Shown here: piece by piece, positions 43,444-48,704 of the stretch
How positions within the stretch are numbered: the stretch's first letter is position 1
Layout of the letters: each line of letters opens with the position of its first letter
Source: Cupriavidus cauae
Lineage (GTDB): Bacteria > Pseudomonadota > Gammaproteobacteria > Burkholderiales > Burkholderiaceae
Assembly (NCBI RefSeq): GCF_008632125.1
Contig: NZ_VWRN01000031.1
Coordinates: 62,001 to 126,000 of the forward strand
Reading direction: 5' to 3'
DNA: 64,000 nucleotides
Made by a program: the position numbers and the translations under genes
Notes under the pieces: generated by a model
What the model was told of the DNA's origin: nothing
Seen by the model: only the letters and a program-made list of their open reading frames with translations
Databases searched by the model: none

Positions 43444-46137
43444 ATGTCCAAAGCTCTCATCATCGCGGAAAAGCCATCGGTCGCGGCCGATATCGCCCGT
43501 GCGCTCGGGGGCTTTACCAAGCATGACGAGTATTACGAGAGCGACGAATATGTGCTCTCGTCGGCGGTTGGCCACCTAGTGGAAATCGCCGCACCGGACG
43601 AATACGAGGTCAAGCGCGGCAAGTGGAGCTTCGCCAACCTGCCCGTGATCCCGCCGCACTTCGACCTGCGCCCGATCGCCAAGACCGAGTCGCGCCTGAA
43701 GGTGCTGAACCGGCTGATCAAGCGCAAGGACGTCACCCGCCTGATCAACGCCTGTGACGCGGGGCGCGAGGGTGAGCTGATCTTCCGGCTGATCGTGCAG
43801 CAGGCCAAGGCCAGGCAGCCGGTGCAGCGCCTGTGGCTGCAGTCGATGACGCCGCAGGCGATCCGCGACGGCTTCGCCAGCCTGCGCGAGGACGCCGAGA
43901 TGCTGCCGCTGGCCGACGCCGCGCGCTGCCGCTCGGAGGCGGACTGGCTGGTCGGCATCAACGGCACCCGTGCGATGACGGCCTTCAACAGCAAGGGCGG
44001 CGGTTTCTTCCTGACGACCGTAGGCCGGGTGCAGACTCCGACGCTCTCGATCGTGGTCGAGCGCGAGGAGAAGATCAAACACTTCGTGCCGCGCGACTAC
44101 TGGGAAGTGCGCGCCGAATTCATCGCCGCGGCCGGCCTGTACGAGGGCCGCTGGTTCGACCCGAAGTTCAAGAAGAACGAGTTCGATCCCGAGGCGCGCG
44201 AGTCGCGGCTGTGGAGCGAGGCCGAGGCCAAGAGCATCGTCGCCGCGTGCCGCGACAAGCCGGGCACCGTCACCGAGGAATCCAAGCCGTCGACCCAGCT
44301 GTCGCCGGCGCTGTTCGACCTGACCAGCCTGCAGCGCGAGGCCAACTCGCGCTTCGGCTTCTCGGCCAAGAACACGCTGGGCCTGGCGCAGGCGCTGTAT
44401 GAAAAGCACAAGGTGCTGACCTACCCGCGTACCGATTCACGCGCGCTGCCCGAGGACTATATGGGCACGGTCCAGCAGACGATGGACATGCTGGCCGACA
44501 GCTCGCCGAACTATCTGCCGCATGCCAGGAAGATCCTGTCCAGCGGCTGGATCAAGCCGAACAAGCGGATCTTCGACAACAGCAAGATCAGCGATCACTT
44601 CGCCATCATCCCGACGCTGCAGGCGCCGAAGAACCTGTCCGAGCCCGAGCAGAAGCTGTACGACCTGGTCGTGCGCCGCTTCCTGTCGGTGTTCTTCCCG
44701 GCCGCCGAATACCAGGTGACCACGCGGATCACCGAGGTCGCCGGCCACCACTTCAAGACCGAAGGCAAGGTACTGGTCAATCCGGGCTGGCTGGTGGTCT
44801 ACGGCCGCGAGGCGCAGGGCGACGACGCCAACCTGGTGCCGGTGGGCAAGGATGAGAAGGTCCGCACCGACAAGGTCGAGCCGGTCGGGCTGACCACCAA
44901 GCCGCCGGCGCGCTACAACGAAGCGACGCTGCTGTCGGCGATGGAAGGCGCGGGCAAGCTGGTCGACGACGACGCGCTGCGCGAGGCGATGGCCGGCAAG
45001 GGCCTGGGCACGCCGGCGACGCGCGCGGCCATCATCGAAGGGCTGCTGACCGAGAAATACCTGGTGCGCGAGGGCCGCGAGCTGATTCCGACCGCCAAGG
45101 CGTTCCAGCTGATGACGCTGCTGCGCGGTCTCGGGGTCCAGGAACTGACGCAGGCCGAGCTGACCGGCGAGTGGGAGCACAAGCTGGCGCAGATCGAGCG
45201 CGGCCGCCTCAAGCGCGACGAATTCATGCGCGAGATCGCGCAGATGACGCAGCAGATCGTCAAGCGCGCCAAGGAATACGACAGCGACACGATCCCGGGC
45301 GACTACGCGACGCTGCAGACGCCGTGTCCGCAGTGCGGGGGTCAGGTCAAGGAGAACTACCGCCGCTTCGCCTGCACGGCGTGCGACTTCTCGATCAGCA
45401 AGATCCCCGGCGGGCGGCAGTTCGAGATCGACGAGGTCGAGACGCTGCTGCGCGACAAGGAGATCGGGCCGCTGCAGGGCTTCCGCAGCAAGATGGGCCG
45501 CCCCTTCGCCGCGATCCTGAAGCTGGCGCGCGACGACGACGGCAACTACAAGATGGAGTTCGACTTCGGCCAGAACGAGGACGAGAACGACGGCGAGCCG
45601 GTCGATTTCAGCGGCCAGGAGCCGGTCGGCACCTGCCCGAAGTGCAGCGGCTCGGTGTTCGAGCACGGCATGAAGTACGTCTGTGAGAACGCGGTCGGGT
45701 CGCCCAAGTCGTGCGACTTCACCACCGGCAAGATCATCCTGCAGCAGGAGATTTCGCGCGAGCAGATCGGCAAGCTGCTGGACCAGGGCCGCACGGACCT
45801 GCTGACCGGCTTCAAGTCCTCGCGTACCGGCCGCAACTTCAAGGCCTATCTGGTCAAGCAGCCGGACGGCAAGATCGGTTTCGAGTTCGAGGTGCGCGAG
45901 CCGAAGCCCGGCGCCAAGACCGCGGCAGGCAAGGCCGCGGCCAAGTCCGCCGCGAAGACCGCCGAATCCGCCGGCGAAGCCGGCGCGGCGGCCGGCAAGC
46001 CGGCGAGCAAGACCGCCGTCAAGGCTGCGGCCAAGACCGCCGCCAAGACCGGCACCAAGGTCGCGGCCAAGGCGGCCAGCAAGACCCCCTCCAAGAAGAC
46101 CGCCCGCGCCAAGACGGCGGCCAGCGCCAGCGAATAA
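43444..46137 (+). CDS. topB: DNA topoisomerase III
   Basis: 897 aa type IA topoisomerase that decatenates and relaxes negatively supercoiled DNA. Toprim domain at the N-terminus (LIIAEKPSVAADIARALGG, acidic DAGREGELIFR); active-site Tyr327 in TYPRTDSRALP; gate domains follow. Two Cys4 zinc motifs occur in the C-terminal third (CPQCGGQV...CTACDF and CPKCSGSV...KSCDF). The last ~70 residues are a Lys/Ala-rich tail (AAKTAAKTGTKVAAKAASKT), longer than in TopB of E. coli and probably DNA-binding. Start ATG 43444 gives the family N-terminus MSKALIIAEKPSVA. Confidence 0.95.
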   Translation: MSKALIIAEKPSVAADIARALGGFTKHDEYYESDEYVLSSAVGHLVEIAAPDEYEVKRGKWSFANLPVIPPHFDLRPIAKTESRLKVLNRLIKRKDVTRLINACDAGREGELIFRLIVQQAKARQPVQRLWLQSMTPQAIRDGFASLREDAEMLPLADAARCRSEADWLVGINGTRAMTAFNSKGGGFFLTTVGRVQTPTLSIVVEREEKIKHFVPRDYWEVRAEFIAAAGLYEGRWFDPKFKKNEFDPEARESRLWSEAEAKSIVAACRDKPGTVTEESKPSTQLSPALFDLTSLQREANSRFGFSAKNTLGLAQALYEKHKVLTYPRTDSRALPEDYMGTVQQTMDMLADSSPNYLPHARKILSSGWIKPNKRIFDNSKISDHFAIIPTLQAPKNLSEPEQKLYDLVVRRFLSVFFPAAEYQVTTRITEVAGHHFKTEGKVLVNPGWLVVYGREAQGDDANLVPVGKDEKVRTDKVEPVGLTTKPPARYNEATLLSAMEGAGKLVDDDALREAMAGKGLGTPATRAAIIEGLLTEKYLVREGRELIPTAKAFQLMTLLRGLGVQELTQAELTGEWEHKLAQIERGRLKRDEFMREIAQMTQQIVKRAKEYDSDTIPGDYATLQTPCPQCGGQVKENYRRFACTACDFSISKIPGGRQFEIDEVETLLRDKEIGPLQGFRSKMGRPFAAILKLARDDDGNYKMEFDFGQNEDENDGEPVDFSGQEPVGTCPKCSGSVFEHGMKYVCENAVGSPKSCDFTTGKIILQQEISREQIGKLLDQGRTDLLTGFKSSRTGRNFKAYLVKQPDGKIGFEFEVREPKPGAKTAAGKAAAKSAAKTAESAGEAGAAAGKPASKTAVKAAAKTAAKTGTKVAAKAASKTPSKKTARAKTAASASE

Positions 46138-46190
46138 GACGTACGAGCGAGGGACCGGCCGAGGCAGGCACACGCCGGCCTCGGTTGCTG

Positions 46191-46270
46191 GCGTTCTTCC
46201 GGGTCGGTCTGGGTTCTTCTGCGTTCTTCCGCGTTCTTCCGGGTTCTTCGGCGTTCCTTCGGGCTCTTCG
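46191..46270. repeat. 10-bp tandem repeat, 8 units
   Basis: Eight 10-bp units of the GCGTTCTTCC / GGGTTCTTCG type exactly fill 46191-46270, the gap between the convergent topB and lysR-type genes. Confidence 0.85.
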
Positions 46271-46271
46271 G

Positions 46272-47228
46272 CTAGCTCGCCGCGTGATGGTCCGCGGCGA
46301 CGGCCGCGGCTGCCGCCGCCCCACCCGCTCCGTCCGCGCTCTTCTTCTTCCCCTCTTCCAGCAGGAAGTCGATGAAGGCCCGCGCCTTGGTCGGCAGGAA
46401 TTTGCGGCTCGGATACACCACGCTGATGTCGCGGCGCGGCAGCTGGTATTGCGGCAGGATGTGCTCCAGCAGTCCGGCTTCGATGCTGGGCCGGGCCAGA
46501 TACGACGACAGCATCGCGATGCCGAGATCGGCCAGCGCCGCCTGGTGCGCCAGTTCGGCATTGCTGCAGACCAGCCCAGGCCGGATCGGCACGGTCACCT
46601 CGCCTTCGGGACCGGACAGCGTCCAGGCGTGCTCGGCATTGGTCAGCCGCATGGCGATGCAGCGGTGCTGGGTCAGTTCATGGGCATGGCGCAGCGGCGC
46701 GTGGGCGCGCAGATAGCCGGGCGAGGCACACAGGATCACTTCGGCCGACAGCAGCGGCCGCGCCACCAGATGCGAGCCCAGTCCGAGGTCGGACAGCACG
46801 ATGCCGACGTCGCGGCCTTCCTCGACGATATCGATGCTGCGGTCCGACAGCAGCACATCGAATACCACGTCGGGATACATCTGCTGGAAGCGGGCCAGCA
46901 TGTCGGGCAGCAGATGTAATCCGAACATCACTGGCGTGACGATCCGCAGCGTGCCGGACAGCGACTGGCTGCGTGCGGTGACCACCGATTCGGCCTCCTC
47001 GACGTCTTCCAGGATCTGCTGGCAGCGCTGCAGATAGGTTTCGCCGGCATCGGTCAGCGACAGGCTGCGGGTGGTCCGGTTCAGCAGCCGCGTGCCCAGA
47101 TGGCTCTCCAGGTCCGCGACATAGCGGGTCACCACCGCGTTGGACATTTCCAGTTGCTGCGCCGCACGGGCGAAGCTGCCGAGTTCGACCACCTTGGCGA
47201 ACACGCGCATCGATTGCAGCCGATCCAT
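46272..47228 (-). CDS. LysR-type transcriptional regulator
   Basis: 318 aa. N-terminal winged helix-turn-helix (FAKVVELGSFARAAQQLEMSNAVVTRYVADLESHLGTRLL) and a C-terminal periplasmic-binding-protein-like effector domain (VTPVMFGLHLLPDMLARFQQMYPDV, VGIVLSDLGLGSHLVARPL). ATG 47228 has GGGAGA about 8 nt upstream. The C-terminal ~20 residues are Ala/Asp/His-rich and beyond the family's usual end, next to the 10-bp array. It is divergent from the repeat-protein gene at 47421, so it may control that promoter; the effector is unknown. Confidence 0.92.
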   Translation of the reverse strand: MDRLQSMRVFAKVVELGSFARAAQQLEMSNAVVTRYVADLESHLGTRLLNRTTRSLSLTDAGETYLQRCQQILEDVEEAESVVTARSQSLSGTLRIVTPVMFGLHLLPDMLARFQQMYPDVVFDVLLSDRSIDIVEEGRDVGIVLSDLGLGSHLVARPLLSAEVILCASPGYLRAHAPLRHAHELTQHRCIAMRLTNAEHAWTLSGPEGEVTVPIRPGLVCSNAELAHQAALADLGIAMLSSYLARPSIEAGLLEHILPQYQLPRRDISVVYPSRKFLPTKARAFIDFLLEEGKKKSADGAGGAAAAAAVAADHHAAS

Positions 47229-47301
47229 TGCACAGTCTCCCTTTTTTCTTCCCCATTTTTCCACAGCTTGGGGTTTTTGTTGTTCTTTATAGAACTAATC
47301 A

Positions 47302-47330
47302 TTGTGTGCGGTAATGTTTATTCATATAAG
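47302..47330 (+). promoter_or_regulatory. Probable promoter of the repeat-protein gene
   Basis: TTGTGT (47302-47307) and TATAAG (47325-47330) separated by 17 bp, 90 bp before the ATG, in an AT-rich patch between two divergent genes. The lysR-type promoter and operator should overlap this region. Confidence 0.5.
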
Positions 47331-47420
47331 GGAAATGCCTAATATGCAGCCATCGGATGCCGCACTGCAGCGAAACCCCGCCGGCGCGGACGTCCTCCCA
47401 AACAGAAGAAAGGACACATC

Positions 47421-47687
47421 ATGACGATCTCCCGCTTTGCCCTGACCGCCGCCGCCACCGCCCTCGTTGCCACCCTGACCGCCGCTCCGGCGTTCGCCAA
47501 GGCCGGCAAGTTCGACCCGTACACCGACGGCGCGAAGGTCGGCCAGACCGACGTATTTACCGAAGGCTCCCGCCAGGGCCAGTTCGACGTGTTCAGCGAA
47601 GGCGCCCGCCAAGGCAAGTTCGACGTGTTCAGCGAAGGTGCCCGCCAAGGCAAGTTCGACGTCTTCACCGAAGGCGCCGCGAAGTAA
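47421..47687 (+). CDS. Small secreted protein of 12-residue repeats
   Basis: 88 aa. A clear signal peptide (ISRFALTAAATALVATLTAAPAFA) leaves a mature ~62-aa peptide that is almost entirely repeats of the form xRQGKFDVFSEGA: KFDPYTDGAKVG, QTDVFTEGSRQG, QFDVFSEGARQG, KFDVFSEGARQG, KFDVFTEGAAK. The register is exact at 12 residues (36 bp). AAAGGA lies about 8 nt before the ATG. It is divergent from a LysR regulator. The family, with conserved Phe, Asp and Gly, is of unknown function; Ca2+ or metal binding by the Asp residues is conceivable but unproven. Confidence 0.82.
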   Translation: MTISRFALTAAATALVATLTAAPAFAKAGKFDPYTDGAKVGQTDVFTEGSRQGQFDVFSEGARQGKFDVFSEGARQGKFDVFTEGAAK

Positions 47688-48221
<534 letters not shown>

Positions 48222-48704
48222 TCAATCGTCCCAGTCACGATGGCCGCGGCGGTGGTAGCGGTGCTTGTTCTTGTACTTGCTCTTCTTGTAGTGGCGATCG
48301 CGGTAGTAGCGGTCGCGGTCGTCGGCGTACGAATTGCTGCGCGAGATGTTGCCGCCCAGCGCCGCGCCTGCGCCGCCGCCCAGGGCCGCGCCGACGAGGC
48401 CGCCGGTCCGGCCGCCCATCGCGTTGCCCGCCGCCGTACCCGCACCGCCGCCCAGCGCGCCGCCCAGGATGGCACCGGTACGCTCGCGGCGATTCGAGCT
48501 GATCGCGCCGCCGGCGCCACCGCCCACCGCGCCGCCGATCACGGCACCGGTGGAGCCGCCCAGCGCGCCTCCGACGGCTGCACCGGCGACGCCGCCGAGG
48601 GCGCCACCCAGTGCGTTATTCATGTCGCTCGCGAATGCAGGCAGCGTCGTCGATGCCGCCAGGGCGAGGGCCACGGTCATATTGCGAACGAGTCGGCGAG
48701 ACAT
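48222..48704 (-). CDS. Glycine-zipper surface/outer-membrane protein
   Basis: 160 aa. A signal peptide (LVRNMTVALALAASTTLPAFA) is followed by a long Gly/Ala region with GxxxG periodicity (GGALGGVAGAAVGGALGG, then GAVIGGAVGGGAGGA), the glycine-zipper pattern of membrane-inserting helices such as SlyB/YMGG-type proteins. The C-terminal ~35 residues are Arg/Tyr/Lys/His-rich and very basic (YKNKHRYHRRGHRDW). AGAGGAAAA lies upstream of ATG 48704. Probably an envelope protein; function unknown. Stands alone. Confidence 0.82.
   Translation of the reverse strand: MSRRLVRNMTVALALAASTTLPAFASDMNNALGGALGGVAGAAVGGALGGSTGAVIGGAVGGGAGGAISSNRRERTGAILGGALGGGAGTAAGNAMGGRTGGLVGAALGGGAGAALGGNISRSNSYADDRDRYYRDRHYKKSKYKNKHRYHRRGHRDWDD

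Follow-up and report, generated by a model that had tools for sequence, protein, structure and literature searches.

A CopQ-like, predicted secreted repeat protein encoded divergently from a LysR-type regulator at a fixed locus of Cupriavidus

The closest described relatives of the protein analysed here form the CopQ-like family, the products of which carry a signal sequence followed by RDXXTDG or similar domains, repeated three to four times with spacers of defined length, and which is described as restricted to Cupriavidus and Ralstonia (PMC2864759). In Cupriavidus metallidurans strain CH34 the members CopQ, CzcJ, MmrQ, MmmQ, MmtQ and MmsQ are reported to be metal-induced, with the data not shown (PMC2864759), and there are 21 copQ homologues, many of them metal-induced and referred to as “still poorly characterized” (PMC7563307); neither CzcJ nor CopQ is listed as detected in the accessible part of a proteome study of this strain (PMC11647595). 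Two further members are linked to silver, since prsQ1 and prsQ2 deletants of the mutant NA4S lost silver resistance, and according to the same source AgrR does not bind at prsQ1, the expression of which was unchanged (PMC7380067).

Within the window, a stretch of 64,000 nucleotides from Cupriavidus cauae, the open reading frame at 47421..47687 (+) codes for a protein of 88 aa and is preceded by a Shine-Dalgarno-like AAGGA (47410..47414, +). Residues 1-26 (47421..47498, +) read MTISRFALTAAATALVATLTAAPAFA, a predicted signal peptide that by inspection ends in an A-F-A cleavage site and lacks a lipobox Cys; by inspection and pattern search, a site of the AxA-K type falls at residue 22-26 of all 59 orthologues, which bears out the signal peptide proposed in the first-pass annotation. 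Tandem-repeat analysis and an alignment of 11 orthologues divide the mature chain of 62 residues into five units (47508..47684, +), which are in order KFDPYTDGAKVG, QTDVFTEGSRQG, QFDVFSEGARQG, KFDVFSEGARQG and KFDVFTEGAAK (47508-47543, 47544-47579, 47580-47615, 47616-47651 and 47652-47684, +) and which follow roughly the consensus [KQ]-F-D-x-[FY]-[TS]-[DE]-G-A-[KR]-x-G. The repeat recurs strictly every 36 nt (spacing 36, 36, 36), and TRF finds in this gene a period of 36 with 3.6 copies, 89% matches and a score of 197. Of the “exact 12-residue repeats” that had been annotated, the five units and the exact period therefore stand, but the units are not identical, near-identity being confined to units 3-5. 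Across the 11 aligned orthologues all five units keep an invariant Gly, and conservation of their first Asp reaches 90% or more in every unit, whereas the 100% D and G in a unit profile of 58 orthologues are unusable as evidence, because the search pattern itself demanded D, an aromatic residue or Val, D/E/N and G. The dN/dS values of the 13 orthologue pairs tested range from 0.02 to 0.20, indicating a real, constrained protein. No clear signal of homogenisation of the units within genes by concerted evolution was seen, the unit similarity being 0.789 within genes, and between genes 0.809 for the same and 0.785 for different positions. Neither a Pfam nor an NCBIfam model matches the window protein at cut-off, in line with the earlier statement that the mature protein has no other domain, and no relative was found among solved structures (best match E 0.11). 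Matches to an antiholin, the TrbC pilin and FliH fell below cut-offs, so that these identities were rejected, as was a phage origin of the gene, for which the phage collection gave no match.

The similarity to CzcJ of pMOL30 (51% identity over 55 aa; E 5e-19 for a single comparison) and, by profile, to CopQ (97.4%, E 1.1e-11) identifies the window protein as a member of the CopQ-like family. These were the two named members compared by sequence; CzcJ was located between czcE and a porin gene and CopQ next to copH, following a published gene order (PMC11647585). Common to the window protein and the family are the signal peptide, units of the type D-x-[FY]-[TS]-[DE]-G with a period of about 12 residues, and no other domain seen. 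The RDXXTDG-type motif is found as five units at a 12-residue period, in which FD/TD replaces RD and T/S as well as D/E vary. Differences are that the units start with KF or QF instead of the R of RDXXTDG, that the window protein has no His whereas CopQ has three and CzcJ one, and that the partner is a LysR instead of CopRS, CzcRS or AgrRS. The function, first given as unknown, can thus be narrowed to a named family tied to metal resistance, though not to a molecular action, and the match to a characterised family with a known role, which by the first-pass annotation's own standard would refute it, is half found. Its hint at metal or envelope stress holds up through the metal link of the family, as far as the accessible parts of the sources go (PMC2864759, PMC7380067).

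The search for other proteins of the KFDxFxEGA type that had been proposed returned relatives across Cupriavidus and 13 further loci in the window genome, which in its 5.75 Mb holds 14 family loci including the repeat gene, ranging from ~80 to ~260 aa, some with just two or three degenerate units, and this rules out an orphan repeat protein. Two candidates were discarded, one lacking the motif (C25:243477) and the other being a low-complexity EGAREGAS frame without it (C8:20945). All 24 Cupriavidus genomes of a first set match the family, compared with none of 16 genomes from other families of the order. Among 398 genomes sampled at the family level 77 match, namely 59 of Cupriavidus, 16 of one other genus (g40) and two (G273 and G274) in which the repeat motif is absent and the match spurious, while the genomes without a match may include further ones of Cupriavidus or g40; order and phylum samples contain three matches each (3/399 and 3/398), all in Cupriavidus.

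The neighbour of the repeat gene is a LysR-type regulator of 318 aa (46272..47228, −; PF03466 3.4e-42, PF00126 1.4e-20), the frame of which extends to GTG 47264, the ATG at 47228 being conserved in relatives. The divergent LysR gene described at first is thereby confirmed, and the family gene lies divergent from LysR in 59 of the 60 Cupriavidus genomes examined, which were chosen for holding some family member. At these 59 loci the distance to LysR is 175-201 bp and the orthologues have two to six units by motif count, short ones being present in G271 (L113, two units) and G184 (L131, three units). The flanks are shared as well: in the 60 stretches fetched around the locus, LysR is found in 60, a protein that we take to be TopB-like (43444..46137, +; outside the mechanism proposed below) in 55, a predicted secreted glycine-zipper protein downstream (48222..48704, −; PF05433 1.5e-6) in 56, YbdD in 51 and CstA in 24, where misses include early-ending stretches, as most are ~3 kb long and the window's own misses YbdD and CstA although both are present in the window. 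The repeat gene is thus a fixed chromosomal CopQ-like member of Cupriavidus. In the single exception (G005, L130) LysR and the glycine-zipper gene are kept and the repeat gene is absent. In the other genus a LysR orthologue is present in 15 of 16 genomes, with TopB alongside in 14 of the 15 stretches, and the repeat motif is absent from all 15 (at most 1.5 kb either side of LysR); in the three genomes inspected, the adjacent gene there resembles by eye an acyl-CoA synthetase gene. The repeat gene was therefore either acquired beside LysR by the Cupriavidus lineage or lost by the other genus. The family and its metal link are already published, whereas the LysR pairing and the conserved promoter block described below are new here: the accessible CopQ-like literature, for which the searches were not aimed at LysR and subscription papers were mostly outside scope, yielded no mention of a LysR pairing or a shared operator.

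Several repetitive elements lie around these genes. The gap between the repeat and glycine-zipper genes contains at 47905-48154 arrays with periods of 6, 8 and 9 bp (CGAGCC, CCGAGCAC, CCGATGCAC), the 9-bp unit occurring in ~24 copies, and a 10-bp tandem repeat GTTCTTCCGG occupies 46190-46269 between the ends of the TopB-like and LysR genes. The TopB-like protein has a long Ala/Lys-rich C-terminal tail (45850-46137), which we would liken to histone H1.

Counted from the conserved LysR ATG at 47228, if this is the start, the gap to the repeat gene measures 192 bp, so that the shared intergenic region first given as 193 bp is confirmed with a corrected length. A “good promoter” had also been claimed; a sigma-70 consensus scan of the window region gave no promoter match for the repeat gene, but alignments across the genus reveal a conserved block facing it, CATTGT...TTTATTCATATAAGGGAAATGCCTAATAT (47300..47345, +), with a -10-like TAATAT at 47340-47345. 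Abutting this block, an imperfect inverted repeat at 47275..47299 (no strand assigned) is probably a LysR box, since it aligns in register with a better inverted repeat, ATTTGTTGTCAAAAATAGAACAAAT, in front of the LysR orthologue of g40 and with ATTTATTGTTGAAATCACAATCAAT of G005; the putative box is weaker in the window than in relatives. With at most three mismatches, a pattern combining operator and promoter occurs in 58 of 60 Cupriavidus genomes, in none of the 16 g40 genomes and in neither of the two others, and it is single-copy in each genome except G216, which has two. The two misses are G005, which keeps the LysR box but has lost the repeat gene and has a worn -10 element (TAATAT to TAATAC), and G402, in which the pattern has suffered a one-base deletion and a substitution and the repeat gene is present. 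The second copy in G216 (C2:568623-568979, two mismatches) lies ~100 bp before another family match, where the gene may have been copied together with its promoter. The conservation of the combined pattern supports a dedicated pair of LysR and repeat gene, in which LysR would, judged from position and conservation, control the latter. That the two are mere neighbours, and that LysR acts on its own gene or on a target elsewhere, would fit with the LysR gene and box that persist in the other genus and in G005, where the repeat gene is absent, and which imply that LysR must have another role too. Such chance proximity appears unlikely, however, given that 58 of 60 genomes retain, with at most three mismatches, the gene-facing block next to the LysR box and that the combined pattern is found nowhere else in those genomes, bar the one site in G216.

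Control of the repeat gene by the LysR encoded beside it, remains our preferred reading, and the repeat gene probably corresponds to prsQ1. In CH34 (G297) the orthologue encodes 82 aa from position 3874515 of the chromosome onward; relative to a P-type ATPase gene at 3815547-3817988 it lies on the cupC side, at a distance of 47 crude genes. This ATPase is taken as cupA, as it is flanked by a MerR-like gene and, on the opposite side and divergent, by the gene of a small GMSCNHC protein, a chaperone, in the order cupR-cupA-cupC. In NA4 cupRAC corresponds to v2_0763-0765 and prsQ1 to v2_0815 (PMC7380067), so that the distance from cupA is 51 locus tags, compared with the 47 crude genes in CH34, on the same side. 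A scan of 240 kb turned up a single further ORF with at least two motifs, on the opposite side and with 71 crude genes separating it from cupA. From this position relative to cupRAC, that is, by counting genes across two strains, PrsQ1 (CmetNA4_v2_0815) is probably the orthologue of the window gene, although it stems from another species and was compared by gene position. The AgrR box ATKACANNNNTGTMAT has no convincing counterpart in the window intergenic region, the best site having five mismatches and being no better than those in 500 shuffles of this region (mostly 3-5), and across the orthologue regions at least four mismatches are found in 58 of 59 and three in one. This is as expected if AgrR does not bind prsQ1. 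No papers were found on Rmet_3570-3575, tags guessed to lie near the CH34 orthologue.

The other members of the family in the window genome lie in varied surroundings. From crude gene calls around the 13 other loci, nine neighbour proteins were identified. One paralogue is located inside a czc cluster and is the CzcJ of this genome, identical to CzcJ of pMOL30 and placed beside CzcR/S/E-like genes. Another is near htpX and, at ~1.3 kb, a CadR/PbrR-like MerR gene that scored just under its cut-off; a third adjoins a gene for an Ohr peroxiredoxin, and a fourth (L018) lies beside another LysR. This variety suggests, as does the varied induction reported in the accessible literature (PMC2864759), that individual CopQ-like members may be under the control of different regulators. 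One and the same CzcJ of 92 aa is found at L012, L052 and L256, which belong to the window genome, pMOL30 and a g40 genome, respectively, which suggests that the czc cluster or a czcJ-type gene was transferred recently.

Periplasmic proteins such as CpxP and ZraP act as signalling partners of stress responses. By binding to a sensor of the envelope or to some other protein, the repeat protein could likewise tune such a response, and the regulators near some members (czcRS, the MerR gene ~1.3 kb away, LysR here and at L018) would agree with this. We consider this role improbable, as the LysR of this locus has no adjoining sensor kinase, and no partner common to all 13 paralogue loci was seen within the limits of the crude calls and the nine identified proteins.

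Signalling apart, the composition of the protein narrows down how it could handle metals. The mature part of the window protein is devoid of Cys, His and Met, and among the mature chains of 58 orthologues Cys or His occurs in none and Met in seven, with a net charge of -2 to +1; G402, whose C-terminus has the look of a frameshifted sequence, was excluded here. AlphaFold, run as had been suggested on shallow alignments, predicted a fold with confidence neither for the window protein (pLDDT 51, pTM 0.16, 35 rows) nor for a long relative (pLDDT 45, pTM 0.14, 11 rows), and in a charge-hydropathy comparison the mature chain falls on the boundary between order and disorder (0.415 versus 0.419). The mature chain is likely disordered according to these predictions. 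Because it lacks Cys and His, carries a net charge near zero and has no predicted fold, a classical soft-metal chelator is unlikely.

A binder of divalent cations through carboxylates, in which a D-x-x-x-[DE]-G loop takes up Ca2+, Zn2+ or a similar ion and folds on binding, would explain the invariant Gly and the conserved first Asp of the five units. Against it, the third position, which is a ligand in EF-hand-like loops, is aromatic in the repeat units, and neither the Pfam search nor the best solved-structure match points to such a family. The metal induction of relatives is compatible with it (PMC2864759), but on balance we regard a cation-binding loop as doubtful.

SilE-type silver-binding proteins are disordered and carry His/Met ligand motifs. 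The repeat protein is likewise small, has a signal peptide, lacks a predicted fold and, if it is PrsQ1, is linked to silver, but it differs in its ligands. A metal sponge of the SilE kind, buffering Ag+ or Cu+ in the periplasm through His and Met, is therefore very unlikely despite the repetitive, probably exported chain, the three His and two Met in the mature part of CopQ and the tie of the family to Ag and Cu in the accessible sources (PMC7380067, PMC7563307, PMC2864759), since the residues it would need are absent from the window protein and all but Met, in seven, from the 58 orthologues.

The best explanation, to which we assign a probability of about 60%, is that the repeat protein is a LysR-controlled, disordered periplasmic accessory of metal or envelope tolerance. 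The signal peptide would export the protein, and its cleavage would leave a 62-residue chain in the periplasm, or outside the cell, made of charge-balanced units without a predicted stable fold. The divergent LysR would control the gene from the putative shared operator in answer to some signal. As for the named relatives, the product would support tolerance of metal ions or envelope stress, with silver at least among the tolerated ions if it is PrsQ1. As a disordered polyampholyte it would act through numerous weak contacts of its carboxylate and aromatic groups, made either to cations or to a partner in the envelope, and metal sites of Cys, His or Met would play no part. Such weak multivalent contacts are favoured over a divalent-cation loop or partner binding. 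Against this explanation stand G005, a Cupriavidus that lives without the repeat gene, the LysR and box of g40 that occur in its absence, the charge-hydropathy value on the order/disorder boundary together with the shallow AlphaFold alignments, and, for the relatives, metal induction reported with the data not shown (PMC2864759) and the missing detection of CzcJ and CopQ in the CH34 proteome study (PMC11647595). Carried further, the locus might represent a principle of metal tolerance without metal ligands, in which a genus-wide, LysR-wired disordered polyampholyte with charge-balanced repeats that bear aromatic residues makes multivalent weak contacts and, perhaps as a condensate or gel in the periplasm, shields the envelope from silver and other cations, with its paralogues wired to different metal regulators; this extension is speculative and we would not expect it to hold.

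In the model metal-resistant bacterium several CopQ-like genes are reported to be strongly metal-induced and two to be needed for the silver resistance of a mutant, and the family is described as poorly characterized (PMC7563307, PMC7380067). The locus described here offers a clean handle on this family, being fixed in position in 59 of 60 genomes and equipped with a probable regulator of its own, a mapped promoter block, and natural variants that range from two to six units and include one natural deletion (G005). Chelation, the obvious model, is disfavoured by mature chains that in 58 orthologues contain neither Cys nor His, and this absence brings the competing models within reach of experiments.
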